From: Rhizobium sp. Leaf371
GTDB lineage: Bacteria > Pseudomonadota > Alphaproteobacteria > Rhizobiales > Rhizobiaceae
NCBI RefSeq assembly: GCF_001424045.1
Contig: NZ_LMQB01000024.1
Location: 124,001-188,000 of the forward strand
DNA length: 64,000 nt
Reading direction: 5' to 3'
Shown here in pieces: positions 6,223 to 23,336 of this stretch. Each line of letters opens with the position of its first letter. The stretch's first letter is position 1. The translations under genes were made by a program, and so were the position numbers. The notes below the pieces were generated by a model. The model had not been told where the DNA came from. It did not search any database and saw nothing but the letters and a program-made list of their open reading frames with translations.

Positions 6223-6299
6223 GGCGGGGTAGCTCAGGTGGTTAGAGCAGCGGAATCATAATCCGCGTGTCGGGGGTTCGAGTCCCTCTCCCGCTACCA
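6223..6299 (+). tRNA. tRNA-Met (CAT anticodon)
   Basis: A 77-nt cloverleaf with encoded CCA. The acceptor GGCGGGG pairs with TCCCGCT, the D arm is GCTC...GAGC, the anticodon loop AATCATAATC carries CAT, and the T arm GGGGG-TTCGAGT-CCCTC is complete. G1 pairs with U72 (G-U), which differs from the C1-A72 mismatch expected of initiator tRNA, so this is probably elongator Met. A CAT tRNA converted to Ile by lysidine cannot be fully excluded. Its last 13 bases plus the next A form the left attachment repeat of the adjacent element. Confidence 0.95.
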
Positions 6300-7896
6300 A
6301 CGGAACAGCCCCCCGTTTCATTCTGCTGTCATCGCTTTCCAGAAACGGCGTAAGCCATCCCTCTACAGCGAGCTTAATTGCGCCGTCCTCGCTCTTGTCG
6401 AGCGTTATGGACTTGATGACCTCACGGATGAGGCGGGATAGCTCCCCCATGTCATCCAGCATGTGCAAGGCCATCTCCAGCTTCGGACGATGGGCCTGAA
6501 GGCGTTGGGCGAAGCTGCTGATAGCTGCCGGGTGGACGACAACCTTGCTCGCCTCCGGCATGCTTTGCAGCTCTACCTGCAATCTCTTCTTTTCCTCGCC
6601 CTGCGCTTTCATTTTGGCTGCAAGCGCGTCACCGTCACCCACGCCCTTCAGCATCCAATCCAGCAAGCGGTCGTTGTCCTTCTCGATGCCCTTGACCCGA
6701 GCTTCGATCTCGGTGCGGCGGCGGTTCTCATGGACGGCTTCAGCATGGCGCTTTTCCATGTACGCTTTCGCGTAGCTGAAGATTTGATCGGGGCTGGCGA
6801 GTTCCTTCGTCAGGCTGCTGATAACCATCTCCTCCACGTCCTGAAGGTAGAATGATTTCGGGTCAGGGCATGCACCGCTGTTGGTGTGCGCTGAGCAACG
6901 CAAACGCGTCTTTCCCGACTTATCCACACCCGCAACGCTCATGCCCGAACCACAAGCCGCGCAGAGGAGGAGACCGGACAGCAGCCGCTTAGGACGCCGC
7001 TGCACGGCCATGTTTCCTTCCTGCTTTGTGTAGGAACGCGACTGCATCTGGCGCTGTACGCTCTCAAAGAGTTCGTCTGAAACGATCCTCAGTTCCGGGG
7101 CCTCTGCCGTCTGCCACTCGCTTGACGGGTTCGGTCGGGATACGCGCTTGCCCGTGTCGGGGTCCTTCTCCATGCGGACCTTGTTCCAAACGATCCGGCC
7201 TGCATAGATGGGGTTTCGTAAAATGCCTGACCCACGTTCTTCCGAGCCGATGAGCGCCGATGGCGACCACAAGGCACCCCGGGGCGGCTTGATGTATGCT
7301 GCATTCAAGCGACGGCTGATGGCCTTCGGTGACGTGCCTCTCTCATACTCTTGGAATATGAGAAGAACCGTGCTGGCCTCTTCCTCCACGATGACAGGCT
7401 TGCCCGGATTTGCGGGGTCGGGCCGATACCCGTATGCACGGCCTCCAGCGGTCAGCCCCTGCTTGATGAGACCGGTCATGCCTCGCCGTACCTTGTGGAC
7501 AGTGTCCTCGCGAAACACTTGCCCAATCACCGCACGAAGCCCGACCGTGAGGGTGTTAGCCTCACCACCGTGAACTTGGATTATTTTCACTCCAGCAAAG
7601 AGCAAACGCTTGTGAATGCCCGACATGTCTTCCATGTCGCGGCTGATACGGTCCAAGGACTCCACGATGATCACTTCGAACTCGCCAGCCCGCGCGGCGT
7701 GCAACATCTCCCGAAGCCCATCGCGCCCGTGCATCGAGCCGCCAGAACGGGCTTTGTCTTCAAAGCTAGCGACGACGCGGAAATTCTCCCGGCGCGCATA
7801 TGCTACGCAAAGGTCAAACTGATCCTCTGTCGACCGTTCGTTCTGTAGTTCGGTTGAGAACCGGGCATAGATCGCCGCTCTGACAGGCTCATGCAT
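6256..7896 (-). CDS. large serine recombinase (integrase) whose frame ends inside tRNA-Met
   Basis: 546 residues from ATG 7896, which overlaps the end of the ribbon-helix-helix gene and has GGGAGG upstream. The resolvase domain begins VRAAIYARFSTELQ with the catalytic Ser in ARFST. A recombinase domain follows (~160-265), then a zinc ribbon with CAACGSGM and CSAHTNSGAC, then a coiled coil (~375-445). It is the integrase of the element. The last ten residues (EGLEPPTRGL) are read antisense through the host tRNA, and the TGA stop overlaps the anticodon triplet. In the excised circle the frame would instead continue across the right arm. Serine recombinases rarely target tRNA genes, so this is an unusual case. 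Confidence 0.92.
   Translation of the reverse strand: MHEPVRAAIYARFSTELQNERSTEDQFDLCVAYARRENFRVVASFEDKARSGGSMHGRDGLREMLHAARAGEFEVIIVESLDRISRDMEDMSGIHKRLLFAGVKIIQVHGGEANTLTVGLRAVIGQVFREDTVHKVRRGMTGLIKQGLTAGGRAYGYRPDPANPGKPVIVEEEASTVLLIFQEYERGTSPKAISRRLNAAYIKPPRGALWSPSALIGSEERGSGILRNPIYAGRIVWNKVRMEKDPDTGKRVSRPNPSSEWQTAEAPELRIVSDELFESVQRQMQSRSYTKQEGNMAVQRRPKRLLSGLLLCAACGSGMSVAGVDKSGKTRLRCSAHTNSGACPDPKSFYLQDVEEMVISSLTKELASPDQIFSYAKAYMEKRHAEAVHENRRRTEIEARVKGIEKDNDRLLDWMLKGVGDGDALAAKMKAQGEEKKRLQVELQSMPEASKVVVHPAAISSFAQRLQAHRPKLEMALHMLDDMGELSRLIREVIKSITLDKSEDGAIKLAVEGWLTPFLESDDSRMKRGAVPLVAGEGLEPPTRGL
6287..6300 (+). other. left attachment core (attL) in the tRNA 3' end
   Basis: TCTCCCGCTACCAA, the last 13 bases of the tRNA plus one, is repeated exactly at 23323-23336. 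The two copies flank the phage-like gene block. Confidence 0.85.
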
Positions 7897-8074
7897 TGGA
7901 GCTGCCCTCCCGAAGTGCAATCTCGCGCAAGACTGCATCCCGGATAAACTCCGCCCTGCGGTTCTTGCCCACGAGGTTGTCGATTTGCTCCGGCAGGCCG
8001 GTGGGAAGACGGACCAGTACAGGCGTCAAATCCAGTGAAGGGCGTCCGGGTCCACGTTTCAGCTTGTCTACCAT
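7889..8074 (-). CDS. small ribbon-helix-helix DNA-binding protein
   Basis: 61 residues. After a basic GRPSLD leader it reads TPVLVRLPTGLPEQIDNLV and then KNRRAEFIRDAVLREIALRE, the beta-strand plus two-helix pattern of CopG/Arc-type repressors. The start at 8074 (MVDKLKRGPGRPS) is preferred over a hydrophobic upstream extension. It overlaps the recombinase start by eight bases, so the two are translationally coupled. It probably regulates the recombinase or acts as an excision accessory factor; this is inference from position. No partner toxin is visible. Confidence 0.75.
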   Translation of the reverse strand: MVDKLKRGPGRPSLDLTPVLVRLPTGLPEQIDNLVGKNRRAEFIRDAVLREIALREGSSNA

Positions 8075-8167
8075 GGCCAGTCCTTGCGTTGATAAGATCA
8101 GTACAAGGAGGATATGCGATATCACTTATCGCGTCTAGCAAGCCAAGCGTGTGGACGTTCTTTTGTG

Positions 8168-8974
8168 CTAAACCGGGCGGGTTAAGGCCAGAGTTTCATC
8201 CGTCACTGGCACTGGCCGGTTGCCTGCAAGCTTCGCAACCTTGCGCAGCCTTGCCATTACGTCAGGATTGAAGTCTACGGGGAAGCCGAAATGTGCCTCC
8301 AGAATGTGACTGTTGTTTTCGGCAAATTCGAGCATATGCGCGCCGATGTTGCCATGCTTGGCTAATTCCAACGACACTGAGTAGTACGGAGTGACGCCTT
8401 CCAAATTTATTAGAAGCTTAGCTCGCTCATCGCCAGTGGTGACATATTTCCCGTATTTGGTGCTGATTTGCGTAAGGGCCTTACTCCTCGCAGTATCAAT
8501 ATCGCGACGTAAGCTGTCGTTCACCGCAAAGCACATATCCAGTAGAAAATATGCGTCCATCTCGGTTTTGAGAGCAGTAAAGTCGATTTTCTGACCGAGC
8601 GCGTCGTGCTGAGAAACAAGCTCATCATAGAGTTTCCAGTGCTCTTTCCAGCTTCGCCCGTCCGACCAACGGCCTTCTTTCACCGCCGAAAGCACGATCT
8701 CACGGGTGTAGATGGACACGACGTTTTTCAACCGGTCGATAAGGTCAGACGCCTCTCGCTGCTTGTCTTCCCAAAGCTCAGCCTCAAATCCCAATCCGCT
8801 GAACTTCTTGAACCGCGATAGATTGGCATAGAGAAAACTGAGGAACGCGATGCCGAACACCACTCCGGCATCTGTCACCTTGCCATCCTCTAGTAAGCGG
8901 TAGAAATGATAGAGCGCAAAGAAACCGACAGCCGCGAACACGAACGCCTGCCAGTTTGTCTTTAAGAATTTCAT
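8168..8974 (-). CDS. membrane-anchored protein of unknown function (possible phage accessory gene)
   Basis: 268 residues. Two N-terminal hydrophobic segments (WQAFVFAAVGFFALYHFY, and AGVVFGIAFLSFLYANL) are followed by a ~210-residue soluble, largely helical, charged domain. ATG 8974 is chosen because GGGGAA lies five bases upstream. I do not recognise the family. It sits between tape measure and integrase, the place where prophages often carry fitness or defence genes, on the same strand as the structural operon but with a ~60-base gap from tape measure. Superinfection exclusion or another membrane-based effector would fit, but nothing in the sequence proves it. Confidence 0.75.
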   Translation of the reverse strand: MKFLKTNWQAFVFAAVGFFALYHFYRLLEDGKVTDAGVVFGIAFLSFLYANLSRFKKFSGLGFEAELWEDKQREASDLIDRLKNVVSIYTREIVLSAVKEGRWSDGRSWKEHWKLYDELVSQHDALGQKIDFTALKTEMDAYFLLDMCFAVNDSLRRDIDTARSKALTQISTKYGKYVTTGDERAKLLINLEGVTPYYSVSLELAKHGNIGAHMLEFAENNSHILEAHFGFPVDFNPDVMARLRKVAKLAGNRPVPVTDETLALTRPV

Positions 8975-9033
8975 GAGCTTCCCCGTAACCGAGGGGGAAT
9001 ACAACACATGATAGCAATCGCTGTCCAGCGTGG

Positions 9034-11631
9034 TCAGACGAACCTCTTCCCGTTCAGAGTGCCGCCAGAGCGCTGTTGCTTGGCCACAAACTCGTTCATT
9101 TTTGTATCCAGAAGCGTGTCCAGCTCGTTTGCCATGCGGTCGCTCAAGGCCGCGTCCGTCTCCTTATTCCCCGATGCCTGGACTGTTATGGGGATGGTTG
9201 GGGAGAAGACATTCGACACCTGATTGACGGAACGGCTTCCACCGCCGCCACCGAGCTTCAGCTTAGCCAGCCGGGGACGCCTGCCGGAGTTGATGCTTTC
9301 CAGAAGCTCCCGGTTCTGGCCAGCAGCCTTGGCATTTACGACATGCTCACCGTCTGACAGCCAAGCGGGCACGCTATCGGAACGGGAGGTGCCGGGGCCA
9401 CGAACACGGCCACCACGGGCGAACGCCTGTATTTCCCCGCCGTCCTTCGCAGCCACCGTACCAGCGCCGGGAATGATCATCTTGAAGAACGATCCGAGCA
9501 ATCCCCCGCTGCCGCCCATGAGCGAGCCTAGCGGTCCTTCACCGAGAAGCGCGGCCTGCACGAGCGCCTTGGCGATGCTGGCAATGAGGCCCTGAATGGC
9601 CTGTTCTGCCGTCATGCTGCCGTCAATGAGGCCGGTGATGGCATCCCCCGTCGCAGACGCAAAATAGTTCGCCACGTCCTGCGCTTGCTGCTGAGAGGTT
9701 GCGAGATTGGTGGTCGCCTGTTCGGCTGCTGCCATGTCCTGCGCCAAGCCGGTGATAGCCGCACGCTGCTGAGGTGTCAGGGCGATGCCAGCGCGCTGCG
9801 CTTCGCTGAGCATCTGCTGTTCGTAACGAAGCGCTGCCGCCTTCTGTGCAGTCAAGCCGAACGCCTGCTGTTCCGTGCCCTGTTCCGCCACGAACTCACG
9901 GGCCTTCATCAGCAGGTCATCATAGGCCTGACCACGATCCTCAAGGTCCTTCGTCTTGTCGGCCATCATCCCGGCGCGGGCGTCGGCATCCTCAATGTGC
10001 CAGTTCTCGTTAGAGAGCGGGAACTGAAGGCCGAACTGGCTCGCGTTGTCATGCGTCCATTTGCGGGCAGCGTCCGAACCGTAGCCGAGGTCAGCCGCGT
10101 TGCCCTTGTTGTGCTGGCTGTTGCCCGGAGGGGCCACCCATTTCCGGGCTTCGGCCACGGAGCCATACTTCGCAAGCGCCTGCTGCCACAACTGCTGCTG
10201 CCGCTCGACAGAACGAAAGCCGGAGGTGATGGTGATCTGGCCTGCCATCTCTTTCGGCAGCGCGCCCAAGAGCTTTTCTAGCTTCCCCTCAAATGCGGAG
10301 GACATGCCCGAGATATGTGAGGCATCCTTCCCGGGCGTCAGGTACTTTGAAAGGTCGATCTTCACGTTGACCTTGCCGCCGTCCTTCACGCTGTCGGGTG
10401 CGGGGTAATCGTTGATCGACACGCGGGGAACGGTGGGCGGCTTTGGGGTGCCGGTGTTGGCCGGTAGACGGCCCGACTTCGGTGCTGCGGGATAATCGAA
10501 AGCCTGATTGATCCTGCTCTGAATAGCTTCTGCCTTCAGACTACTGCCGAGCGGCTTGCCTTGGAGGATATCACTATTGAGCGAGCCCATCTTGTCGATG
10601 ATGCCGGGTATGCCGCCCATGATCTTCTTGAACTCGGACGCAGCGTCTACGCCCTTGGACAGCCAGCCGACAAACTTGCCGAGATCGCTGTCGGACGCCT
10701 TCACCACGATTGCACCGAACTGCTGGATGGTGGTGGCAAGGTCGGTCAGGGCTCCCCCGAATTTCCCCGATGCACCTGTCGCAGTGTCGATTTTCCCCGC
10801 CGTGTCGATCAAGACGTTTTGCAGCCGCACGAAATTCTGTGCGACAGTCATAGAAGATGTGGCCACCTTCTCTTCAAGGGTTACAGCCCCGACTTCGAAA
10901 GCACGGAAGAACGCCTGAGAGGAAACCTTCCCGTCAACCACAAGGTTGCGGAGCTTGGCAACGGAGCCGCCCGCTTCGGTCAGGCCAGCGGCAACCGCCT
11001 GTGCGATGGTGGGCGCACCTTCCAAGACGGAATTGAACTCTTCGGCCCGAACGGTGCCACCGCCCAAGGCCTGCGAGAGCTGCAAGAGCGCGCCGGATGC
11101 CTCTTCCGCCGATTGGCCACCCACTCGGAGTGCCAGCGAGACGTTTTTCGAGAACTGGATAAGCTCCTGCTGATTGACGCCGAGTTCCTTCTGCACGAGC
11201 GACAACCGCCCGTAGAGGGTAACAAGACTTTCCAGCGGCGCGGCGTTTTCCTGCGCTGCCGCATAAAGCTGCCGATACACCCCTTCAAGCTGCTCGCCTT
11301 CAAGACCGGCCACCTTCAGGGCGTTCTTGATCCGGGTCGCGGCGTCCACAAGCTGCTGAGCCTGTTTCAGGGCGACGGCTCCTGCCAATGCGCCAGCAAT
11401 ACGCTGTCCAAACTCACCCACGCGGGTTTCAGCTTGTCCGAAGGCGCGACCGATAACGGAGCCCGAACGGCCCATGCTCGCTTCGAGACGGGATGCGGCC
11501 TGCTTGGCGCGGCGTTCGATCTGGTCGAAGTTCGTGCTGACTAGCCGATGCGCACGCTGCATGCCTTTTTCTAGGTCACGGGTGCGAGCTTCAAGAGAGA
11601 TGAACAGCCGTTCGGTGTCATTTGCAGGCAT
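9034..11631 (-). CDS. tail tape measure protein with embedded VanY-type peptidase
   Basis: 865 residues. The N-terminal ~290 residues form the phage tape-measure domain (EEFNSVLEGAPTIAQAVAAG, with long helices). Around residues 465-550 lies a D-Ala-D-Ala carboxypeptidase-like domain: ITSGFRSVERQQQLW, the zinc motif SQHNKGNAADLGYG, and NENWHIE. The C-terminal part has a membrane-spanning hydrophobic stretch (~690-720) and the typical SDSVPAWLSDGEHVVNA ending. The tape measure sets tail length and the peptidase may open peptidoglycan during DNA entry. AAGGA precedes the start. No tail-tip gene follows, which is unusual. Confidence 0.9.
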   Translation of the reverse strand: MPANDTERLFISLEARTRDLEKGMQRAHRLVSTNFDQIERRAKQAASRLEASMGRSGSVIGRAFGQAETRVGEFGQRIAGALAGAVALKQAQQLVDAATRIKNALKVAGLEGEQLEGVYRQLYAAAQENAAPLESLVTLYGRLSLVQKELGVNQQELIQFSKNVSLALRVGGQSAEEASGALLQLSQALGGGTVRAEEFNSVLEGAPTIAQAVAAGLTEAGGSVAKLRNLVVDGKVSSQAFFRAFEVGAVTLEEKVATSSMTVAQNFVRLQNVLIDTAGKIDTATGASGKFGGALTDLATTIQQFGAIVVKASDSDLGKFVGWLSKGVDAASEFKKIMGGIPGIIDKMGSLNSDILQGKPLGSSLKAEAIQSRINQAFDYPAAPKSGRLPANTGTPKPPTVPRVSINDYPAPDSVKDGGKVNVKIDLSKYLTPGKDASHISGMSSAFEGKLEKLLGALPKEMAGQITITSGFRSVERQQQLWQQALAKYGSVAEARKWVAPPGNSQHNKGNAADLGYGSDAARKWTHDNASQFGLQFPLSNENWHIEDADARAGMMADKTKDLEDRGQAYDDLLMKAREFVAEQGTEQQAFGLTAQKAAALRYEQQMLSEAQRAGIALTPQQRAAITGLAQDMAAAEQATTNLATSQQQAQDVANYFASATGDAITGLIDGSMTAEQAIQGLIASIAKALVQAALLGEGPLGSLMGGSGGLLGSFFKMIIPGAGTVAAKDGGEIQAFARGGRVRGPGTSRSDSVPAWLSDGEHVVNAKAAGQNRELLESINSGRRPRLAKLKLGGGGGSRSVNQVSNVFSPTIPITVQASGNKETDAALSDRMANELDTLLDTKMNEFVAKQQRSGGTLNGKRFV

Positions 11632-11642
11632 GGGTGATCCTT

Positions 11643-13283
11643 TCAGAAGATGAGGAGCCCTTCGGCCCGTTCGTCGGTGTCATAGATTGAGCGGGTATCT
11701 TCGCCGGTTGCTGCACGGGAGACGGCCATAGCTGTTGCAACGGCTCCGTCGATACGCTCACGGGACTTCTCTTTGTCCATTTTGATGTTCTCGGCAGCGT
11801 CGGTCACGACTGAGACGTTGTCGAAGTTCCATCGCAAAATCGGGTGCCCGCCGTGCTGGAATTTGCGACCTAGAATGGCCCGCTCCAGTTCTCGGCATGC
11901 CGCATTCATGGTCTTGAAGCCCTGCCTCATTTCGATGGCGGGGAGGCCTTCGTCCACGAACTTGCTGAGTGTGCGCTGAGCGTTCCAAGGATCGAATGCG
12001 ATCTCGCGAACGTCGTACTCCCGGCAAAGGTCGCGGATGCGCTCTTCGACATATTCGTAATCGACAACGTTGCCCGGTGTGGGGGTTATAAGCGCCAGCT
12101 CCGCCCACGTCGTGTACGGAACGCCGTCAAGCTCCGAACGCCTGCGGAGGTTTTCTTTCGGGCAGAAGTACCAAGGGTGGACGATGTAACCGCCATCGCC
12201 ATCGCGCCATGCTGCGACAACAGCCGTAAGGTCCTTGTTGCTGGAAAGGTCCACGCCGATCCAGCACGGTTCGCCTTTCAACCTGTCAAGATCAACGGGA
12301 GCTGCGCCGAGATCGTAAATCGGCATCTCCACGAAGGGCGCTTCGGAGTGGTCTAGCCAGCAATTTAGGTGGAACTGCCGAAAGGCGTCACGGTCTCCGG
12401 GCCGTTCCTTTGCCTCTTTGGCCATCTGCCGAAGCCCTTCAAGGTCAGGATAGCCGTATGACAGGCCGGGGTTAGCCCGTTGCCACACGGCTTCATCTTC
12501 CCAGTCCGCATCCTGCGGGGTTTCGAACATGACCGGCAGCGTGGCGGGGTCGAGGATTTCGCCCTTGGCCACCTTCCGTGCGTAGGCGATCTGTTCAAAG
12601 GCAAGGTTCTCTTGCCCGCGTCCCGCCGTGGTGGCGATGACCATGAGGGAGCCGGGTGTCTTGGCCATGCCAGACCGGATCGCATCCCATAGGTCACGCT
12701 TTTTCCACGCGTGGATTTCGTCAATCAGGGCAAACACGGGGGTATGGCCGTGGGCACTTGCTCCATCGTTAGACACGCATACGTAGAAACTGCCGTGCGT
12801 CTTGTTCTTTACCCGGTGCTTATGGTCGGCAATTTGCGCAATCGCGTTTACCTTGGGGACGGCGCGGATGATGCTCACCGCCTCCTCAAAAGCAATTTTC
12901 GCTTGTTCCCGGGTAGATGCGGCGGATAGCACTTCTCCTCCCGGCGTCCTTTCAGGTCCCCAAGTGTGTAGCAAAGCGAGCGCTGCCGCGAGGCTGGTCT
13001 TGCGCGATCCACGAGGGAGGAGAAGGACAACGGTCTTCACTATCCGGGTGCCGTCTGGATTGCGCGGCCCGTAGATGGCGCGGACGATGCGTTCCTGCCA
13101 CTTGTCGAGCTGGAAAGGATGGCCGGGGAGCGGGTTCTTCGGGTGGTTCAAGGCACGGAGGAACTTCACCGCACGTTCCCCGTAGCCAAACGGGTCCGCA
13201 ATCGGACTGTCGTCAAAGACCCACGCCGGGTAGCTCGTGGCGGGTTTCGGCGCTATCTTCTTTTTCAGGATGAGCTTTACCAT
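11643..13283 (-). CDS. terminase large subunit
   Basis: 546 residues, Terminase_1 type. The ATPase carries a deviant Walker A (LLPRGSRKTSLAAAL) and Walker B VFALIDEIHAW. The nuclease half has acidic residues in WIGVDLSSNKDLTAVVA, EIAFDPWNAQ and ERIDGAVATAMAV. It pumps DNA into the procapsid and cuts it. The start ATG at 13283 overlaps the small-subunit stop as TGATG; a GTG three bases upstream is possible. Its place downstream of the head-tail joining genes and directly before tape measure differs from the usual order. Confidence 0.95.
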   Translation of the reverse strand: MVKLILKKKIAPKPATSYPAWVFDDSPIADPFGYGERAVKFLRALNHPKNPLPGHPFQLDKWQERIVRAIYGPRNPDGTRIVKTVVLLLPRGSRKTSLAAALALLHTWGPERTPGGEVLSAASTREQAKIAFEEAVSIIRAVPKVNAIAQIADHKHRVKNKTHGSFYVCVSNDGASAHGHTPVFALIDEIHAWKKRDLWDAIRSGMAKTPGSLMVIATTAGRGQENLAFEQIAYARKVAKGEILDPATLPVMFETPQDADWEDEAVWQRANPGLSYGYPDLEGLRQMAKEAKERPGDRDAFRQFHLNCWLDHSEAPFVEMPIYDLGAAPVDLDRLKGEPCWIGVDLSSNKDLTAVVAAWRDGDGGYIVHPWYFCPKENLRRRSELDGVPYTTWAELALITPTPGNVVDYEYVEERIRDLCREYDVREIAFDPWNAQRTLSKFVDEGLPAIEMRQGFKTMNAACRELERAILGRKFQHGGHPILRWNFDNVSVVTDAAENIKMDKEKSRERIDGAVATAMAVSRAATGEDTRSIYDTDERAEGLLIF

Positions 13284-13693
13284 CACAACCCCAAATCATC
13301 ATCTTCGGCGTCGGGCTTCTCAGCACCCATGCCGTCACGGGAACGGGATGCCGGGGTGATGCCGAGTTCCGCCGCCAGCCGCGCAACGATCACCTGCGAC
13401 TTGGTGAGGAGCGCGGACGCCGGATTGCTCTTCAGCATTCCATGGGCGGAACTGACCAGAAGGCCATGCTTCTCGATAGCCTTGGTCGCCTCACGGCATG
13501 ACCAGAGCGCGACCACGTAGCTTTCGAGCGCGCCAAGGCACGCCTGTGTGAGAAGCTTCCGGTCCCGAAGGTCTATGGCCACCGTCTGCCACTCCTCCCG
13601 CATGCAGTCGGGCACGGACGCGGGCAGTGCGGGAACGCCGCTCAGGCCTCCCTTTATCGTCTTCAATGCGGGCTTTACGCCGTGGTGTGCCAT
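13283..13693 (-). CDS. terminase small subunit (P27 family)
   Basis: 136 residues from MAHHGVKPALK, with GGGGGA upstream. The core EEWQTVAIDLRDRKLLTQAC, then SYVVALWSCREATKAIEKHG, and the C-terminal QVIVARLAAELGITPASR match P27-type small terminases, which recognise pac or cos DNA. It is coupled to the large subunit by TGATG and starts right at the end of the head-closure gene. Confidence 0.88.
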   Translation of the reverse strand: MAHHGVKPALKTIKGGLSGVPALPASVPDCMREEWQTVAIDLRDRKLLTQACLGALESYVVALWSCREATKAIEKHGLLVSSAHGMLKSNPASALLTKSQVIVARLAAELGITPASRSRDGMGAEKPDAEDDDLGL

Positions 13694-13694
13694 G

Positions 13695-16012: not shown

Positions 16013-16270
16013 TCAGAACGTGACGATGGCGACGGGCTGGTCCTCGTCGGGCATCATGTAAACGTTGACCCCGGCTGAGAACTTAGCCACGCCGGGAAGA
16101 CGGAACGGGCTCGTGGCGAAGTCGGGCACGACGAAGAACACTTCCGTGTCCACGGGTGGCATCTCTTCCCCGTAGTGGATGCGAAGGCCGGTCTGGTTGC
16201 TCTTCGGCTGGATTGCGATGAATGCATTCACTTGCGTCCATACGCCGGGAGGAAGGGTTACGAGTTCCAT
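16013..16270 (-). CDS. small unknown phage protein
   Basis: 85 residues from MELVTLPPGVWTQVNAF. The start overlaps the HNH stop as TAATG. It is predicted beta-rich with no membrane segment. The family is not recognised; a minor virion or head-decoration protein is possible from size and location. A longer upstream reading would run antisense through the HNH frame and is not supported. Confidence 0.65.
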   Translation of the reverse strand: MELVTLPPGVWTQVNAFIAIQPKSNQTGLRIHYGEEMPPVDTEVFFVVPDFATSPFRLPGVAKFSAGVNVYMMPDEDQPVAIVTF

Positions 16271-16611
16271 TAGGCTTTCCTTTCGAGGCGCTGTTTTGTG
16301 CTGCTGTGGCAGGGGGTGCATAGGGGTTGCCAGTTGGACCGCGACCAAAAGAGCTTCTTGTCGCCACGATGGGGAATGACGTGGTCCACGACGGTGGCAG
16401 GCTCGCCGCATGTGGCGCACGTGGGGTGCGCTAGGAGGTAGGCCTTACGCTCCTTGTCCCACTTGCTGTCGTACCCACGTTCACGCGCTGAGGGGCGCTG
16501 CTGGTCGAATGCGGCCTTGCGCTCACGGTCACGGGCAAGACCATGCTGACACTTGCTGCCGGAGGCGACGACGCACCCGCATGCTCGGAGGGATGGCGCG
16601 CTATAAGGCAT
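16270..16611 (-). CDS. HNH endonuclease
   Basis: 113 residues. The nuclease core is CATCGEPATVVDHVIPHRGD, then NWQPLCTPCHSSTKQ, with the paired Cys motifs CxxC and CxxC around the catalytic DH and the terminal HxxxK. Phage HNH proteins beside packaging genes assist terminase cleavage. Here it is separated from terminase by eight genes, which is atypical. Confidence 0.9.
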   Translation of the reverse strand: MPYSAPSLRACGCVVASGSKCQHGLARDRERKAAFDQQRPSARERGYDSKWDKERKAYLLAHPTCATCGEPATVVDHVIPHRGDKKLFWSRSNWQPLCTPCHSSTKQRLERKA

Positions 16612-16614
16612 CCG

Positions 16615-16860
16615 TTAGCCCTCCAGTTCTGGAGTTGTCAGTTCTAAACGTGGTGCGCTGCTATCCCTCTCAAATGCGTCAAGCTCCCGTCCAAGAGGAA
16701 CAAGCAAGCGCTCGAAGTTATCAATGCGAATAGGATATGCCTTCTTGCTAAGGAAGCGCTTGATAGTAGAACGCGCTACCCCTGACTGAATGGACAGCTT
16801 ACGAATTGACAGCTTCTTCTCCTTGCTCAAGTCGCGAATGATCTGCCGCCAATCGGTCAT
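16615..16860 (-). CDS. XRE-type helix-turn-helix protein
   Basis: 81 residues. It contains WRQIIRDLSKEKKLSIRKLS, IQSGVARSTIKRFLSKK and a C-terminal helix, i.e. a small XRE-like DNA-binding fold with little else. The start ATG 16860 overlaps the chaperone stop as TGATG. It occupies the place where the second tail-assembly-chaperone frame often lies, but the sequence is clearly HTH. It could be the element's own regulator; no separate CI-like repressor is seen. Confidence 0.78.
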   Translation of the reverse strand: MTDWRQIIRDLSKEKKLSIRKLSIQSGVARSTIKRFLSKKAYPIRIDNFERLLVPLGRELDAFERDSSAPRLELTTPELEG

Positions 16861-17420
16861 CACGCGGCCTCCGGCTTCTGTGTGCCGATGCCAGCGAAGA
16901 TGCTGCGGAACTTCTGGTCTAGCGGACGGTCGTCCTTCGGCTTCTCAGCCTTCCCGCCGCCATGGATGGCGCGGAGCATGTCCATGTGACCAGCATAGGC
17001 CAGGGTGATTTCTGCCGGGGTCGCATCAAGCGTTACGTCCGGTGTCCAGCCCAGCCAGCCGGTGCCAAGCTTGTAGAGTTCGATGAGATGATCCTTGAAC
17101 GGGACGGACTTTCCCGACTTGCCCTTGCTGGCCTTCGGCGCGTCGTCAGGATCGATACCGGCGCATGCCAAAAGGTACGCGATGAGCGGAGCCTTCAGGG
17201 TCGGCAGGGCATCAAAGACGCGGTTCTCAAGATAGGGCATCGCGTCTGCATGGGGTTCGATGATGCTGAGGGCAGCGGTCAAGCTGCCTTCCTGCACCTC
17301 ACGGAGGAGCTGGCCGAAACTGCCATCACGGCGTTCCAACTGGATGGCGTAGCGAAGGGATGGCCGAAGCTCGATCTCTTCGTCTGCCACCGTGATCCAG
17401 ATTTCTTCGGCCAGCTTCAT
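16860..17420 (-). CDS. tail assembly chaperone
   Basis: 186 residues, acidic and helical. The N-terminal EEIELRPSLRYAIQLERRDG and the C-terminal LGWTPDVTLDATPAEITLAY (a W-P-x(n)-T-P-x-E pattern) resemble tail assembly chaperones that coat tape measure before tube polymerisation. It lies directly after the tail tube gene. No programmed frameshift site was obvious. Confidence 0.75.
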   Translation of the reverse strand: MKLAEEIWITVADEEIELRPSLRYAIQLERRDGSFGQLLREVQEGSLTAALSIIEPHADAMPYLENRVFDALPTLKAPLIAYLLACAGIDPDDAPKASKGKSGKSVPFKDHLIELYKLGTGWLGWTPDVTLDATPAEITLAYAGHMDMLRAIHGGGKAEKPKDDRPLDQKFRSIFAGIGTQKPEAA

Positions 17421-17436
17421 GGTCGTATCTCCGGGC

Positions 17437-17913
17437 TTAGGTGGCCGATGCCGCGACTTCGATGATCGGGCCGGAGATGGCGAGCGAGAAGGTCGTCTTC
17501 ACGATGTCGTCGGCACCCGCAAAGCTGTTCTTGGCGCTGGCGACGATGGCGCTGAAGTAGAACACGGAGTTTTTCGGGCTGGCACCGGCAGAGGGCTTGT
17601 CGTTCAGCTCCACCTTGAAGTTCCAAGCCGAGGAGGTCTTCTCCGCCGCGATGAGGGCCTGATAGCCAGCGTCGGCACTGTCACGGGCAATGACCAGTTC
17701 CATGGAACCGTTGTCGCGAGAGCCCTTGAGCTTGCGCGTGTAGGGCTGGTCAACGAACTTGCCGACGACGATCTCAGCTTCGGAACCGGCTTCACCGACA
17801 TCTTCGATGTTGGCAATCGGCTTCCACGTGTCACCGGCATAGGCAACAGCGGTGGCGAAAGCAGCGGTGGTTCCGATGGCTACGGTGGTGAGGGCAGTTG
17901 TGGTGATACCCAT
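17437..17913 (-). CDS. major tail tube protein
   Basis: 158 residues, Ala-, Gly- and Ser-rich and predicted beta. It contains YAGDTWKPIANIEDVGEAGS, FVDQPYTRKLKGSRDNGSME and a C-terminal TTFSLAISGPIIEV, as in siphophage tube proteins. AAGGAAA precedes the start. It implies a long-tailed (siphovirus-like) morphology. Confidence 0.87.
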   Translation of the reverse strand: MGITTTALTTVAIGTTAAFATAVAYAGDTWKPIANIEDVGEAGSEAEIVVGKFVDQPYTRKLKGSRDNGSMELVIARDSADAGYQALIAAEKTSSAWNFKVELNDKPSAGASPKNSVFYFSAIVASAKNSFAGADDIVKTTFSLAISGPIIEVAASAT

Positions 17914-17977
17914 CTGGGTTTCCTTTCGATCTTATGAGGAGGGAAAAGCGGCGGGTTTCCCCGCCACCTTCGATGGG

Positions 17978-19150
17978 TTAGGCCGCTGCGACCTTGACCT
18001 TGATGAAGCGGTCGGGATGGGTCACGTCGCCGCCTACGCGCTTGCGGGCGTGGAAGCGGGTGATGCCGTTGGTGGCCTTGGAGAAGGGGTCCACGAGCAC
18101 GGAGACGCCGACGCGGTCAACGATCCGGTAGCCGGAGAAGTCACCGAACACGATGGGCGTTGCGCCTGCACCGATGTTCGGCATGTCAACGGCTTCGATC
18201 ACGGGCCGACCCAGGAGCGTTGCAGGCTGGCCCGCCTGAATGGATGGCTGCCAAAGGTACGCGCCCTGTCCGTCCTTCAGCTTTCGCATGGCAGCGAGCG
18301 TAAGACGGTTCATGAGCCACGCGCCGTTCTGAGCGTGGAGGCTCGGAAGCTTGGCCATGGCATCGATGAGGAGATCAGCGGGATTGGTGCCGAGCGTGGC
18401 GGCAGCGCCGGTCACAACCTGCGCAATGCCGGTGGCCTGAAGGATGCCTTTCGGCTTGCCGTTGCCGTCACCGTTGACGAACGCAATACCTTCCTTGACG
18501 CCGAAGTCTTCGGCAAAGGACATGCGGAGTTCGCCTTCGACATCGTAAGCGGCATCTTCCAGAAGCTGCTTGGACACGTCTACGAACGTTGCCAGCTCGT
18601 ATGGGGTCAGCGTGACCTGTCCGTAGGTGAGCGTGCTTTCCGGGCGATCTTCGATCTCGGAAACCCACTGAGCGTTCGTGCTCGTGAGCTTCTTTGGATA
18701 CCGGATTTCCGGCCCGGCAATCGTCATGACGCGGGCATAGGCGCGGATAGGGCTGTAATCGACCACCGTGCGGAGGATTTCGTTGCCGTATTCCGGGGGA
18801 GCGAGGTAGCCCGCCGATACATCGTTGCCGACAGTGAGGGCGCGCTTTTCGTCGGTATTGAGTGCAGCGGCACCACGGCGGAGGTAGGTTCCGAATGCAA
18901 GCGTCTCGACCGAAGGTTCGTTGCGCTGTTCGTTCTGCTGGTTGCCCGGACGATTGAGACGGGTTTCGAGCGTAGCAACTCGCTCAAGTGCGGCGCGGAG
19001 TTCCGTCTGGTGTGCAGCATGCCGTTCTTCGGCAGCGGCACGCATTTCCTCGACGGCTGCGGTTGCCGTTGCGAGCGGGTCGGTGGTGTCATCGGAGCGC
19101 GTTTCCAGCGGAATGGCGGAACGCGTTTCAATCTTGGTGTGGTGGGTCAT
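17978..19150 (-). CDS. HK97-family major capsid protein
   Basis: 390 residues from MTHHTKIETRS, with AAGGAAG upstream. Residues ~35-80 form the delta-domain coiled coil that is removed after assembly. The coat fold follows, with GGYLAP-like SAGYLAPPEYGNEILRTVV, FVDVSKQLLEDA and NGDGNGKPKGIL. It forms the icosahedral shell. Confidence 0.95.
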   Translation of the reverse strand: MTHHTKIETRSAIPLETRSDDTTDPLATATAAVEEMRAAAEERHAAHQTELRAALERVATLETRLNRPGNQQNEQRNEPSVETLAFGTYLRRGAAALNTDEKRALTVGNDVSAGYLAPPEYGNEILRTVVDYSPIRAYARVMTIAGPEIRYPKKLTSTNAQWVSEIEDRPESTLTYGQVTLTPYELATFVDVSKQLLEDAAYDVEGELRMSFAEDFGVKEGIAFVNGDGNGKPKGILQATGIAQVVTGAAATLGTNPADLLIDAMAKLPSLHAQNGAWLMNRLTLAAMRKLKDGQGAYLWQPSIQAGQPATLLGRPVIEAVDMPNIGAGATPIVFGDFSGYRIVDRVGVSVLVDPFSKATNGITRFHARKRVGGDVTHPDRFIKVKVAAA

Positions 19151-19152
19151 TC

Positions 19153-19983
19153 TCACTTCCTTTTCAAAGACAGCGCGGCCTTGCGGCATGCAGACACAAA
19201 GGCCGCTGCGCTTTCACGGCCTGTTTCGGGATTGGCGATACGGACGGATGTGACGCCTGAACCGGGGACGCTCGGAACGGCAACCAAGCTGATTTCGTGG
19301 ATGCGAGCTTCAGTGATGTGACGTACGCCCTTAGGGCGGCTCTCCTGCTTCAAACGTCTGAAGCCGATGGACAAACCAGAGATGTCACCTGCGAGAAGCA
19401 TCGAGCGGACTTCGCGGGCACGCTGCACTTCTAGGTTCAGTTTGCCGGTGATCTTCAGGCCGTTGTTCTCTACCCGAACGGTGCGCACTGAACCGACAAC
19501 GGCGCTGGGGTCATGGGACCATAGGAGCGGGAGGCTCTTGCCGTCCCATGCGAAGGCGCGGCGGTCGAACGTGGTGCCGTAGCTGTCGAGTGTATCGAAG
19601 CGGACGGCCATCCCTTCGAAGTCGCCGTCCTCGCCCGGCGTAGCGAAACGAACCTCTAGCATGTCGAGGACATCGCCGCCCGCAGCACCACGAGCCTCAA
19701 ATGCGCAACCGCTGCGTATCTCGACTGCGGCACTCAGCGCGGCAAATTCCTTGGCCCGCTGCCGGTTGTGTGGGTAGAGGTAGGTTACCCGCCCTTTGAT
19801 CATTCGGCGGTCCCAGCCGTGCAGTGGTGCAACATGATCAGCAACACGACGGACAACCTTGATCTGATCTGCCGAAGGTGTTTCGACGCCATAGAAGGCG
19901 CTGGCGATTTCGACGGCGGTCCAGCGGAGACCATTACCGGCTTCGAATAGCTGGTGGACGTAGGCTTGCACGTATCCGGTCAT
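19153..19983 (-). CDS. HK97 prohead protease with extra N-terminal domain
   Basis: 276 residues. Residues ~105-250 are the U35-type prohead protease: FEGMAVRFDTLDSYGTTFD, LLWSHDP with the catalytic His, and the Ser in DISGLSIGF. The first ~95 residues are an added domain (GLRWTAVEIASAFYGVETPS, VVRRVADHVAPLHGWDRRM, VTYLYP) with winged-helix-like predicted structure, which is not part of the usual protease. It matures the capsid. It overlaps the upstream gene by ATGA and ends two bases before the capsid start. Confidence 0.92.
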   Translation of the reverse strand: MTGYVQAYVHQLFEAGNGLRWTAVEIASAFYGVETPSADQIKVVRRVADHVAPLHGWDRRMIKGRVTYLYPHNRQRAKEFAALSAAVEIRSGCAFEARGAAGGDVLDMLEVRFATPGEDGDFEGMAVRFDTLDSYGTTFDRRAFAWDGKSLPLLWSHDPSAVVGSVRTVRVENNGLKITGKLNLEVQRAREVRSMLLAGDISGLSIGFRRLKQESRPKGVRHITEARIHEISLVAVPSVPGSGVTSVRIANPETGRESAAAFVSACRKAALSLKRK

Positions 19984-20327
19984 AGGGTGTCCTCGCCATT
20001 TGCAATAAATTTCGTGGAAGGGACTTTTTCGGCAGGGTCCGCGAACATGAGCTTTTCAATTACCGGCAGCGCCTTGGCGTAAAGATCGGTGACGGCCATC
20101 CGGTCGGCATAGGTTATGACCAGCGCGGCGGCTTCCTTCGGGTCCATGCCACCGCCCACGAGGCCAAGGCGAAGGGTCTCGGTGAGTTCGGAAAAGCTGA
20201 AGTCTCCGGCGAAGAACCTGCGGGAGATGGCACCGATGCCGGAACCGACGATGCGCTCCAGCTCAAGGGTCATGCCGGGGTCGAGACGGAAGGCGTGCTC
20301 CGCATCCCCGAAGAATTGCTTATGCAT
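19980..20327 (-). CDS. GTA-gp10 / Phage_TAC_11-like tail assembly protein
   Basis: 115 residues from MHKQFFGDAEHAFRLD. The pattern FGDAEHAFRLD...LELERIVGSGIGAISRRF...LRLGLVGGGMDPKEA fits the short tail chaperone family known from gene transfer agents (PF11836). It lies unusually between portal and protease, far from tape measure. The start overlaps the portal stop by eight bases. Confidence 0.75.
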   Translation of the reverse strand: MHKQFFGDAEHAFRLDPGMTLELERIVGSGIGAISRRFFAGDFSFSELTETLRLGLVGGGMDPKEAAALVITYADRMAVTDLYAKALPVIEKLMFADPAEKVPSTKFIANGEDTL

Positions 20328-21573
20328 CGGGCTTGGTCTCCGGGGTGGCCGGTGTGGTGCTGGTCGTGTTGGGGTTCGCGAAGATTTCGCCACCGGCGTA
20401 GGGCGCACGGTTTTCCATGGCGCGAACCTCATTCGGGTTCAGGACGCGAGCGGCGATAAGCTTGCCATAGCTGTCCGCACGGGCAGCGAGATCGGCCCGG
20501 AGGAGATCGTCCACGAGAAATTCGGGGTAGAACTCAGCGCGGTCTTCAGGGCTGATCAGCTTCAGGCGGATTTCGCCTTCCCATGCCTTTATCCAGCGCA
20601 TGAGGGTGAAGCGAAGAAAGGAAGCGCCCATCTCGGATGCATTCCCCCACGTGGCGCGGCCCAGCTCAAACACGAGGTGAGGCGGCACGCGAAATGCCCG
20701 GCAGATTTCGAGAATGGCATGCTGCCAGAGTTCAAGCGTCTGGCTTTCAACGCTGGACAGGGTGAGGGCTTCAAACTTGGTGCCTTCTTCGAGCAGTGCC
20801 GTGCCACCGGAGTTGCTGCCGCCATGAGCTGCGCGCCAGCTCGCCATCATCCTCTTTCCGGCTTCCGGGCTGATCTTGCCTGCTGTGGAGAGGACGCCGG
20901 AGGGCTTGGCACCACGCCCGAAGAAACGAGCCGTATGGCTTTCGATGGTCATTGCGAGGCCGATGGCTTCACGGCACTGCTGAACGGGGGAAGCACCGCT
21001 CACGCCATCAAGGCTCGGTGCGGCGATGTGCAGGATGTCGCGGCGGTCGATGACGCGCTGGCTGGTGGCTTCGCTGATCTTGTAGACAGGTTCCCCGGTG
21101 CGGCTGTCGAGTTCAACCGTCACAGCCTCCGGGCGTAGGCGGATCAGTTCGCGGGGGTCACCGGCAACGCGGTTAATGAACGCATAGCCGTTTCCATGGA
21201 GGAGCGCGTCCCGGGTGATCTGTTCAAGGAAGGCAGATGCCGGGGTCCAATCGTTGGCCTGATCGTGGAGAAGCCCGTAGGCGGGATGTTCCGGGGCCCG
21301 CTCACGAGCATCGCCGTCGCGGCGGTAGATGTGGACAGGAAGCCCGCCGATGGCTTCGGCAATGGCCTCAACGGCAGCACGGACGGTGGTGCAACGCATT
21401 GCGTTCTGAGGGGTGACGGACACCCCCGACATGACCGGTGCAGCGCCGAACAATTCGAGAAGCCATTCGTCAGGCGATGCAATCGAGGCACGCGTTTCCG
21501 CTACCGGCTGAACGGATGCCTGCGGTTCACGCGCCGGGCTGGCAGAGGTTTCGTGTTTTGAGAAAGGCCACAT
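20320..21573 (-). CDS. HK97-family phage portal protein
   Basis: 417 residues from MWPFSKHETSAS. Blocks are VRAAVEAIAEAIGGLPVHIY, WTPASAFLEQITRDALLHGN, DILHIAAPSLDGVSGASPV and GATWGNASEM-like RATWGNASEMGASFL, typical of the dodecameric portal. A 25-residue in-frame upstream extension is possible but does not resemble portals. Confidence 0.94.
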   Translation of the reverse strand: MWPFSKHETSASPAREPQASVQPVAETRASIASPDEWLLELFGAAPVMSGVSVTPQNAMRCTTVRAAVEAIAEAIGGLPVHIYRRDGDARERAPEHPAYGLLHDQANDWTPASAFLEQITRDALLHGNGYAFINRVAGDPRELIRLRPEAVTVELDSRTGEPVYKISEATSQRVIDRRDILHIAAPSLDGVSGASPVQQCREAIGLAMTIESHTARFFGRGAKPSGVLSTAGKISPEAGKRMMASWRAAHGGSNSGGTALLEEGTKFEALTLSSVESQTLELWQHAILEICRAFRVPPHLVFELGRATWGNASEMGASFLRFTLMRWIKAWEGEIRLKLISPEDRAEFYPEFLVDDLLRADLAARADSYGKLIAARVLNPNEVRAMENRAPYAGGEIFANPNTTSTTPATPETKPDA

Positions 21574-22194
21574 GTTGACACCAAGGCGAGCGATTGAGGG
21601 ATCGCTTGCGGGGTGGTGCCTTCCCGCTGTTATTGACGCTCTAGGCACCTCGACAGGTGCAGGTCAATGAAGCTGGCGTGATAATAGTCGGGCCGTGGTA
21701 GTCCGTCAACGCGCACGGACAATAACCTGTAAGCATTCCGGGCCAACCGTGAGCCCGAATTTAAATTTAGTTTGTGATTAACGTCTCATTTCCGAAGTGA
21801 AATTGATTGCAGTAGCATCGAGTTACTTTTCGCCCATCTGGTTCCGGCAGAAAGCGCCTTCTGAGTTCGTCGGCTATTCCGCTGGTGCGGGACAGCCATC
21901 CGCAAGGGCGGCGGATGAGCGAGGGGCTTGGGGGAGTGAGCGCCTTCGGGCGAAGCCCTATTCTTCCCGAAAGCTGTCTTTCTCACTTCCCGGGAACGCA
22001 ACGAGGGCTTTGCCCAACTTGCAGTCTCCATCTTCAATTATTTTAGTTCTTATAGCTTATATATTATTCTAATTGTTTGGAACGGCAGCTTTTAGAAAAA
22101 TGTTGAATGATTTCAATAAAACCGCTGCGAGGGTAAGGTTGTTTTCACCCTCATTTTGCGTTTGAGCAAACGGCAACTTCGGAAGTCTAAACGG
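21574..22194. other. AT-rich regulatory gap of the element
   Basis: No gene is seen in 621 bases. It is markedly AT-rich at 22030-22120 compared with the rest of the window. Small inverted repeats: GCACCT-CGAC-AGGTGC near 21646, GTCCGT...ACGGAC at 21701-21720, CATCCGC...GCGGATG at 21897-21917, and TTGAA-TGAT-TTCAA at 22103-22116 followed on the minus strand by a T-rich run. It probably holds the terminator of the winged-helix gene and the promoter of the structural operon, and could hold a replication origin. Confidence 0.45.
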
Positions 22195-23115
22195 TCAGAC
22201 GTGCGTTAGTCCAAGGGCAGCATAAAGCCGCTTCCTGCGGGACGATCCATCGGCGGCATACGGAGCTTTCATGATGTTGTCGGTGATGGCGTAGGGCTTG
22301 GTAAGCCTGTCCCAGACTAGCCAAAGCATCTTCTTATCCAGCCCATTCAACTGCCCAGTGATAGCTTGCCGGTACAGTTCGCGGTTCTCCTCTTCAACCT
22401 TTGCATGCTTTGCGCTCATGCCCCGAGGACGCAATTTCTTGACCTTCGGTGCGGGTTCCGGGCTCTGTTGGGTACTCTGCGAGTGGCCCTCCTCGAACAG
22501 CATTCGGGACAGCTTATCGGAAGGTTTTATCCAGAGGTGGTTGTCACCGTTCCAAAGATGTGTCCTAGCGTCTATGAGACCAGCCGCTTCCAGCTTCGTC
22601 TTGATGTTGCGCAAGGTACGTTCGGAAACCCGTTTTGGTGCGTCCCTCCGCTCTTTGGCATTATTGATGCCAGACTTGCACCAATCCTCTACAGAGCGAA
22701 CGGCGTAGCGTTCCCAGCGCTCCAGTTCGGAATTCCAGCGACCATTAGTCGATTGATGATGCTGGAACTCGATATCCAACAGAAAGTCTGCAACGAACGC
22801 GACATCGCGGCAGCCGGTTTCTTTGGCGATCTGCATAAGGATTTTTTTCCAGCCCTCTACCCGAGGCAGGTCACTATGAGCAGCGAGCGACTTCGGCAAG
22901 ATAGCGGCTTTGGTCGGGGTCTCATGAGCTGCCACCAGCGTGGTAGATGTCCGATGCCAAAGGCGGAGCTTGGTGTCGGGGCTGATGAGGTCTTTCAAAT
23001 GCGCCTCTGCATTTGCCTCCGTCATGCCTACCAGCCTGTCGCGGTTGATCTCGCTTCTGTATTTAGGTCTTGCCTTCTGAGTGCTGGCAGCAAGCCATCC
23101 ATCAATCTTGTACAT
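22195..23115 (-). CDS. winged-helix phage protein, possible replication initiator or regulator
   Basis: 306 residues. Residues ~140-205 (VRSVEDWCKSGINNAKERR, RVSERTLRNIKTKLEAAGLI, NHLWIKPSDKL) look like a winged helix of the kind found in plasmid or phage replication initiators. The C-terminal part is basic. It is the first gene inside the right attachment site and has GAGG upstream. No primase, helicase or ATP-binding motif is visible, so replication is only a guess. Confidence 0.7.
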   Translation of the reverse strand: MYKIDGWLAASTQKARPKYRSEINRDRLVGMTEANAEAHLKDLISPDTKLRLWHRTSTTLVAAHETPTKAAILPKSLAAHSDLPRVEGWKKILMQIAKETGCRDVAFVADFLLDIEFQHHQSTNGRWNSELERWERYAVRSVEDWCKSGINNAKERRDAPKRVSERTLRNIKTKLEAAGLIDARTHLWNGDNHLWIKPSDKLSRMLFEEGHSQSTQQSPEPAPKVKKLRPRGMSAKHAKVEEENRELYRQAITGQLNGLDKKMLWLVWDRLTKPYAITDNIMKAPYAADGSSRRKRLYAALGLTHV

Positions 23116-23221
23116 AGGTAGTGCCTCACCGATAACATTTTGTTGTATCGCCTGAGAGCCGTGATAAGGTGGGGGTGCGTTGGTGCCCCTTCCCCTCTGT
23201 TGGCGGTCCCAGACTTCGAAG

Positions 23222-23250
23222 CCTCCGGTGTGCCAGCACCGGGGGTTTTA
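23222..23250 (+). terminator. plus-strand hairpin at the right end of the element
   Basis: CCTCCGGTG (23222-23230), a 6-base loop and CACCGGGGG (23237-23245) form a 9-bp stem including G-T pairs, followed by TTTTAC. It would stop transcription heading out of the element toward the GGDEF gene. No plus-strand gene precedes it. Confidence 0.5.
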
Positions 23251-23322
23251 CTTTATGCGCGGGGCTTCTTCGGACACCCATTTGCATCGAAGTTCCATGT
23301 GGGGCCGTGTCGTTTGTTTCGG

Positions 23323-23336
23323 TCTCCCGCTACCAA
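23323..23336 (+). other. right attachment core (attR)
   Basis: An exact copy of the 14-base tRNA 3'-end sequence TCTCCCGCTACCAA. Host DNA resumes here. The 170 bases up to the GGDEF start show no gene. Confidence 0.85.

Follow-up and report, generated by a model that had tools for sequence, protein, structure and literature searches.

The window analysed here is a 64,000-nucleotide stretch of Rhizobium sp. Leaf371 (contig NZ_LMQB01000024.1, positions 124,001 to 188,000). It contains a phage-like element at positions 6287-23336 that encodes head, packaging, neck and tail shaft in a family-specific gene order and has no recognised tail-tip, receptor-binding or separate lysis gene. We propose, with a probability of roughly three in four, that the element is an intact integrative satellite that would supply head and tail shaft itself and borrow the tail tip and lysis from a helper siphophage, using a dock at the end of its tape measure protein (TMP). 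How would such a satellite complete a particle? The helper would drive induction, and the serine recombinase of the element would excise it. The element would package its own 17 kb into its own head and build its own tail tube around its own TMP, with the tube started on the tip complex of the helper siphophage. The last ~60 TMP residues would dock the satellite tail onto the helper tip, the satellite chaperones, tube protein and terminator would finish the tail, the tail would be joined to the satellite head, and the helper would lyse the cell. A satellite TMP that ends like that of the helper could therefore allow the helper tip to start a tail that satellite proteins finish. We infer helper dependence, docking and lysis by the helper from sequence.

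The ends of the element are marked by a 14-bp direct repeat, TCTCCCGCTACCAA, that represents the attachment (att) core. The unit measures 17,036 bp from repeat to repeat, read on the minus strand from 23336 to 6287, because the core is present at 6287-6300 and again at 23323-23336. The left copy sits within the 3' end of a tRNA-Met gene (6223-6299, plus strand, detected by ARAGORN), which is the integration target. When whole loci from six further genomes of the genus are compared with the entire window, homology stops at base 6300, the final base of the core, in 6/6 relatives; it spans the gene before the tRNA, presumably mnmA, in five of them, and only 165 bp are joined in G005. A perfect empty site was sought in these six relatives and not found. 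Only the left break is clean because the GGDEF gene behind the right repeat, present in 3/6 relatives, stands elsewhere in them, with no tRNA within the 20 kb read. As a separate observation, the sequence 494 bp past tRNA-Met in the genus relative G003 matches window positions 30403-31387, and therefore a further ~7 kb lie between the element and the old flank. These ~7 kb (23337-30402: the GGDEF gene, an FMN reductase and a chemotaxis-receptor-like open reading frame (ORF)) are not at this place in G003 and probably constitute a second insertion or rearrangement adjoining the element.

The window proteins (ORFs of at least 50 aa) were named by PHROGs and Pfam scans. The morphogenesis genes all lie on the minus strand, are open and are closely packed with 4-nt overlaps, for example between the small and large terminase subunits (TerS/TerL, 13283-13286) and between the gp10-like protein and the protease (19980-19983). 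Transcription order begins with a 306-aa protein upstream of the portal (22195-23115; no Pfam match at E <= 0.01, weak phrog_38056 match at 0.0026), the portal protein (20320-21648; phrog_12, Pfam Phage_portal 1.5e-97), a tail assembly protein of the gp10 type of gene transfer agents (GTAs) (19980-20432; Pfam Phage_TAC_11 1.2e-19), the prohead protease (19153-19983; phrog_80, Pfam Peptidase_S78), the HK97-type major capsid protein (17978-19189; phrog_10, Pfam Phage_capsid 7.4e-88) and the major tail (tube) protein (17437-17913; phrog_158 3.5e-22, Pfam Phage_tail_3). A 186-aa protein follows (16860-17420; phrog_7493, a family of unknown function, and no Pfam match), which we take to be a probable tail assembly chaperone from the family alignment and from its likeness to such sequences. 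Behind it come a small Cro/CI-type helix-turn-helix (HTH) protein (16615-16863; weak phrog_8 match, Pfam HTH_26 below the cut-off) and an HNH endonuclease (16270-16611; phrog_2323, Pfam HNH).

The second part of the operon begins with proteins of unknown function, including a 197-aa protein that is kept in part of the family (15399-15992; homologues in 50 of the 177 locus sequences described below). It continues with the head-tail adaptor Ad1 (15109-15402; phrog_40), the Neck1 or tail completion protein (14705-15121; phrog_5), a 99-aa operon protein with no assigned function (14409-14708; weak phrog_24619 match), a gp17-like tail terminator (14009-14419; phrog_176, Pfam Tail_completion_gp17 1.1e-21), the head closure protein Hc1 (13695-14012; phrog_25), TerS (13283-13735; phrog_83, Pfam Terminase_4), TerL (11643-13286; phrog_9 2.3e-147, Pfam TerL_nuclease) and the 865-aa TMP (9034-11631; phrog_17300 4.8e-110, Pfam TMP_3 5.2e-51). 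The last two genes encode a 279-aa protein with a hydrophobic N-terminus (8168-9007; no PHROG or Pfam match, 40% to locus L027) and a large serine recombinase, or integrase, of 560 aa (6256-7938; Pfam Resolvase, Recombinase and Zn_ribbon_recom, phrog_95), whose frame extends into the tRNA. Residues 448-542 of the TMP (10006-10290) form a VanY/M15 peptidase domain (Pfam PF02557 1.9e-13); the same stretch also matches the PHROG endolysin family 938 at 1e-13, and the domain is read here as a predicted virion-borne wall enzyme.

The element belongs to a widespread family that is so far alphaproteobacterial where the host is named. A TerL search of 101 genomes found 14 further loci at 40-65% identity, followed by eight at 31-35%. 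All 14 relatives at 40% or above are flanked by direct repeats at tRNA (13) or tmRNA (1) genes, and these repeats are spaced 16,634-18,478 bp apart in the stretches of 20-45 kb that were read; for G070, a 15-mer inside the tmRNA 3' end (16,736 bp) was preferred over a 16-mer outside the tmRNA (21,751 bp apart). A scan of genome contigs yielded 228 relatives. Among the best 80, which were kept, 79 titles are alphaproteobacterial and one reads 'Proteobacteria' only; they include Rhizobiales, Rhodobacterales and Rhodospirillales groups by name-based assignment. Two scans of viral contigs gave at least 18 and at least 80 rows, many from contigs of 13-22 kb, with no named hosts. Among 163 further loci, 40 have repeats of 14 bp or longer at a tRNA, with a spacing of 15,013-18,888 bp in 39 and of 7,093 bp in the remaining one, a broken locus; the size range of this set is biased because 10-kb flanks cannot reveal units much longer than 20 kb. 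In total, 53/54 elements with mapped ends (not deduplicated) span 15-19 kb. Profiles built from the genes of the window and its relatives were run over 177 locus sequences, and 118 loci with more than 7,000 bp before and more than 3,500 bp behind TerL were kept, after L164 (broken) and L126 and L156 (repeat rows) had been dropped by hand. Removal of seven near-identical loci left 111 non-redundant loci, in which the TMP is present in 87 and absent in 24.

The scanned window proteins include no recognised member of a tail-tip, fibre, holin or separate endolysin family. The tip, receptor-binding and lysis genes of a complete temperate phage were recognised with the same library in the prophage of genome G024, discussed below. 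An earlier sequence-only reading had described a ~17-kb phage-like element at tRNA-Met with an intact, one-direction set of head, tube and tape measure genes and no tail tip, fibre, holin, endolysin or CI-like repressor. The ends, the gene set and the missing tip, fibre and holin families agree with this description; its statement on endolysin holds for a separate gene and must be qualified by the M15 domain of the TMP, and its statement on a repressor is weakened by the small HTH protein with its weak matches.

The same gap is seen in the relatives. The screen for lysis and fibre genes used 133 accessory ORFs of at least 100 aa from 16 elements (15 relatives and the window element). With Pfam, no lysozyme, amidase or holin appears among the best 25 of 30 families, which comprise integrases, a primase-polymerase, regulators, one minor tail family and others; the remaining five families match one ORF each, at E >2.5e-4 by sort order. 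With PHROGs, no endolysin or fibre occurs among the best 25 of 32 families at E <= 1e-12, which include one minor tail protein, or among the best 25 of 98 families at E <= 0.001. The 87 TMP-bearing loci were screened for tip proteins using a Dit profile and the M, L, K, I and J proteins of two phages. A single tip protein is found in 19/87 loci (Dit-like in 6, M-like in 10, I-like in 3), and these queries detected no L, K or J homologue in any of the 87. L027, the nearest relative of the window in the tree, has M directly behind the TMP (phrog_14), and the window has no M there. The borrowed part thus seems to range from the whole tail, via the tip, to the tip without its first ring.

Could the element instead be a complete minimal phage, its tip and lysis proteins having diverged beyond recognition, with, for example, the M15 domain acting in lysis and the 279-aa protein serving as the holin? 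The hydrophobic N-terminus of the 279-aa protein, the peptidoglycan-hydrolase domain that also matches an endolysin family and the presence of several genes without known function would fit such a phage. However, the 279-aa protein has a single homologue (L027) among the 177 locus sequences, and therefore the gene following the TMP is not conserved. The accessory screen described above also speaks against a hidden lysis module, and the TMP-less, head-only relatives in the same clade would have to borrow a tail. We consider a complete minimal phage unlikely.

The neck, terminator and tube genes travel with the TMP as one block. Neck1 is present in 80/87 TMP-bearing loci versus 1/24 TMP-less loci, the tail terminator in 79/87 versus 1/24, Hc1 in 72/87 versus 4/24, the tube protein in 53/87 versus 0/24, and either tube or chaperone in 76/87 versus 1/24. 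No TMP-linked difference exists for Ad1 (75/87 versus 19/24) or HNH (78/87 versus 23/24). The TMP-less locus L160 carries neck and terminator genes. On the TerL tree, a quick tree with long outgroup branches, the tail state switches at least nine times on well-supported branches. In independent pairs drawn on this tree, the TMP changes the same way as Neck1 in 6.6 pairs and the opposite way in 0 (median p 0.016), and the terminator follows it in 5.6 to 0 (median p 0.031). The tube protein alone gives 3-6 to 0 among the pairings listed, Ad1 gives 0.7 to 1.0 and HNH gives 0.1 to 1.8. A 128-aa protein behind the capsid gene (phrog_5707) was considered as a tube protein and rejected; it is more likely a head protein because it is found in 18/24 TMP-less loci. 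The linkage of the block bears on the idea of a decoy, in which the satellite TMP would interfere with the assembly of helper tails and satellite particles would carry whole helper tails. A satellite protein that blocks helper tails, Rta, is described in PMC12987554. However, neck, terminator and tube genes that accompany the TMP and are absent from nearly all TMP-less relatives would be odd companions for a decoy, which makes this explanation quite improbable.

Is the element a defective prophage that has been stripped of distal tail and lysis genes? Its gene content matches what such a deletion would leave, and the N-terminal part of its TMP is nearest to that of ordinary siphophages such as Labrenzia phage vB_LagS-V1 (54%). 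Nevertheless, layout, size and the terminase-last gene order are shared by the 111 non-redundant loci. TerL lies behind the portal in 109/109 of these loci that have a portal, and the terminase precedes the portal in 8/8 more distant phage loci (in one of which, G014, TerL is interrupted by a stop) and in Labrenzia phage vB_LagS-V1. The TerL tree separates the 111 loci from the eight other phage loci with a support of 99. The ratio of nonsynonymous to synonymous substitution rates (dN/dS), computed between the window and L027 for 12 genes, is 0.087 for the TMP, 0.114 for TerL, 0.109 for the capsid, 0.257 for the tube, 0.149 for the terminator and 0.129 for Neck1, and at most 0.37 in 12/12 genes, which represents purifying selection. 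Together with an att core present in both copies, these observations make a decayed prophage very unlikely. The sequence-only reading had likewise argued for a stable form rather than a recent deletion, and the family layout, the 15-19 kb span of 53/54 elements and dN/dS values of 0.087-0.37 bear it out. It had suggested looking for elements of 15-20 kb with the same gene order, tRNA ends and missing genes, which were found (14/14 relatives; 111 loci), and had named relatives with the same operon plus tail-tip and lysis genes as contrary evidence; no relative with a full tip set was seen, only the single tip proteins of the 19 loci. Its view that the element borrows only the tip and lysis is consistent with these comparisons.

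A GTA-like or tailocin-like host system, which the GTA-gp10-type protein and the alphaproteobacterial setting might suggest, is highly improbable, given that tailocins are not known to carry capsid and terminase genes and GTAs have complete tails and are not known to have a recombinase or att ends, whereas the element has capsid and terminase genes, a recombinase, att repeats with a break point shown by genus relatives, and a missing tip.

What would connect the satellite tail with a helper tip? The final ~60 residues of the TMP have the appearance of a helper-specific dock. The TMP of phage lambda has its C-terminus in the tail tip, on gpI (PMC10721106). The last 65 residues of the window TMP have one match in 50,697 phage records (E <= 1), the TMP C-terminus of Rhizobium phage RHph_Y1_11, with 67% identity over the last 58 residues (9037-9210, minus strand), which we propose as the dock for the helper tail tip. 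The genes directly after the TMP of this phage are annotated M, L, K, I and J, and the tip of the helper of the window element is predicted to be of this lambda M-L-K-I-J kind. The N-terminal part of the window TMP matches other phages, the best being the Labrenzia phage mentioned above. Five other satellite TMP ends (G052, L165, G079, L154 and G002) were queried singly against the phage records. Rhizobium phages of 115-122 kb account for 10/10 records each for G052 and G079 and for 10/12 records for L165, the other two being Cylindrospermopsis phages, and thus for 30/32 record matches of these three ends together. The L154 end has one match, a 55.6-kb Rhizobium phage. The TMPs of four 100-122-kb Rhizobium phages (RHph_Y1_11, RHEph10, RHph_X66 and B1VFA), which all have further tail genes directly behind the TMP, match 32/87 satellite C-termini, 2/87 N-termini and 8/87 middles. 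All 32 matching C-termini belong to one C-terminal cluster of 44.

In a few genomes, a satellite and a resident prophage appear to have related TMP ends. In genome G024, the last 131 TMP codons and the stop of the satellite are identical to those of a prophage; the alignment of the pair comprises 400 columns with no mismatch and one gap, which lies behind the stop by coordinates, and elsewhere the two TMPs do not match significantly. Behind its TMP, the prophage encodes a distal tail protein, a tail protein, an acetyltransferase-like match, a J-like fibre, a fibre-assembly match and an endolysin. Two lists of 24 and 17 host genomes, 39 in all (G056 and G458 are in both; the L157 genome was left out), were searched with C-terminal profiles, and a second match beyond one per list was found in 8/39 genomes and none in 31/39. 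Of the eight regions compared, one is the satellite itself and one is a second satellite, leaving six, or seven with G024. The rank of the same-genome satellite among the 87 is 1, 1, 1, 1, 2, 2 and 2 for the last 65 residues (for G056, the better of two satellites), and 1, 1, 1, 2, 2, 5 and 6 for the last 130 residues. For the first 350 residues, it is unlisted in five cases, 50th in one and 1st in one. In this rank test, profiles built from satellite ends create a bias towards the cluster and not towards the same genome, and host kinship is uncontrolled. G479 (L333) and G470 (L330) are not clearly complete prophages and carry less weight; G479, the case with N-terminal rank 1, matches over its whole length.

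Two observations accompany this comparison. L333 (G479) encodes a TMP that shares 82% identity, across almost the entire protein, with the TMP of L154, the satellite in this genome, and that adjoins a capsid gene; no TerL match lies within the 20 kb read, and the locus is a further layout variant. Weak second C-terminal profile matches occur in G455:C2 and G456:C13.

Several points weigh against the proposed tip-borrowing satellite. A resident helper for the window element was sought in its own genome and not found: that genome has no second copy of the window TMP or of its end, and the window TMP end has no match at E <= 1e-5 in 396 other genomes of the order. The TMP end of G002 has no match in the phage records, the second C-terminal cluster matches the four large phages in 0/22 cases, and five random internal 65-aa pieces, drawn from TMPs >500 aa, also match these phages. 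The tube is not recognisably self-made everywhere, because 34/87 TMP-bearing loci lack a tube profile match; a chaperone-like protein is present in 23 of these 34. The pairings of the TMP with Hc1 (4.8 to 0) and with tube or chaperone (5.0 to 0) each have a median p of 0.0625, above 0.05. The lysis-gene screen covers 16 elements only, small holins could be missed by a screen of ORFs of at least 100 aa, and one accessory protein has a 16-residue match to a spanin family (E 0.0021), which we take as chance. Beyond the window, the odds appear evenly balanced that tail-shaft satellites represent a general stage between head-only satellites and phages, in which helper choice would reside in a swappable, helper-copied C-terminal tag of the TMP and many members would be tuned to 100-122-kb, probably lytic, Rhizobium siphophages.

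Further observations concern neighbouring systems. The genome of the window (G000) has a second capsid-like cluster at G000:C12:281068-282120 (L070/L071), with a 40% major capsid protein match and portal, Ad1, terminator and gp10-like matches. Considered as a helper and set aside, it is a different phage-like cluster, possibly a GTA cluster or another prophage. L146 and L160 (Brucella pituitosa and Devosia rhodophyticola) contain two tandem or nested satellite-like units, with more than one TerL and portal within the 20 kb read. Multiple satellites per genome occur in Martelella lutilitoris (L093, L102 and L103), where TMP-bearing and TMP-less forms stand side by side, in G056 and in Rhodopseudomonas palustris JSC-3b (L097 and L136). 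In one subgroup (the G048, G056a, G002 and G058 elements), the TMP is followed by a protein of 305-484 aa that matches HNH-type PHROGs and might be a homing or packaging nuclease.

How does the element compare with known satellites? Capsid-forming phage-inducible chromosomal islands (cf-PICIs), reportedly founded as a group by Alqurainy et al., encode their own capsid, portal, protease, adaptor/connector, HNH and terminase, and alpA, pri and rep are the regulation and replication genes of the PICI type. The window element has this entire capsid and packaging set and is integrated, with a serine recombinase and a 14-bp core at tRNA-Met. Replication genes in its relatives include a primase-helicase (G070) and weakly replication-initiator-like genes (G058 and G002), and the 306-aa protein of the window is unclassified. 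Separate lysis gene families, which cf-PICIs lack, were not found among the scanned window proteins (ORFs of at least 50 aa) either, although the M15 domain of the TMP matches an endolysin PHROG. In PMC11389934, cf-PICIs are chromosomal satellites that combine their own capsids with helper tails, and their capsid proteins form three published clades. The 24/111 TMP-less relatives fit this description. However, cf-PICIs are described as stealing whole tails, whereas the window element has a tube protein, tail terminator, Neck1 and TMP, and a TMP is likewise encoded by 86/110 other loci, in most cases together with neck, terminator and tube or chaperone genes. A TMP alone is not new, because the legend of Extended Data Fig. 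10b in PMC12987554 reports a sampling of cf-PICIs with putative tmp genes. The window element appears to work like a cf-PICI but is not classed strictly as one.

The PLE satellites of Vibrio cholerae make chimeric tails by placing their own TMP, tail assembly chaperone and hub in the helper tail (PMC12987554). They resemble the arrangement proposed for the window element in combining a satellite TMP and chaperone with other tail parts from the helper. By description, however, PLEs use the helper capsid and tube and encode a hub, whereas the window element encodes capsid and shaft and no hub. The Streptomyces phage satellites MulchRoom and MiniFlayer are similar in size (15-17 kb) and have their own capsid, portal and terminase genes, and MulchRoom forms particles with long tails (PMC10690885). 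The part of that paper considered here names head and packaging genes and, in MiniFlayer, a tail fibre, and mentions no TMP or tube. Labrenzia phage vB_LagS-V1, the best N-terminal TMP match, has annotated head, joining, terminator and major tail genes, but it is a 39-kb phage with the terminase first, a putative endolysin and, immediately after the TMP, four genes annotated as hypothetical. In a literature search at the level of titles and the starts of abstracts, with bioRxiv and most subscription papers outside its range, no satellites with a whole tail shaft, with shaft genes that travel as a block or with TMP C-terminal matching were recognised. The selective entry of satellite TMPs into particles is left open for PLEs in the legend of Fig. 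4h of PMC12987554. The TMP C-terminus offers a concrete, sequence-readable answer to this question, from which helpers would also be predictable at the genome level. Previously known satellites steal the head or the whole tail, or insert a TMP of their own into the tail of a helper; in the present case, the division falls between a shaft of the satellite's own and a stolen tip, and forms with and without a TMP alternate within one clade.

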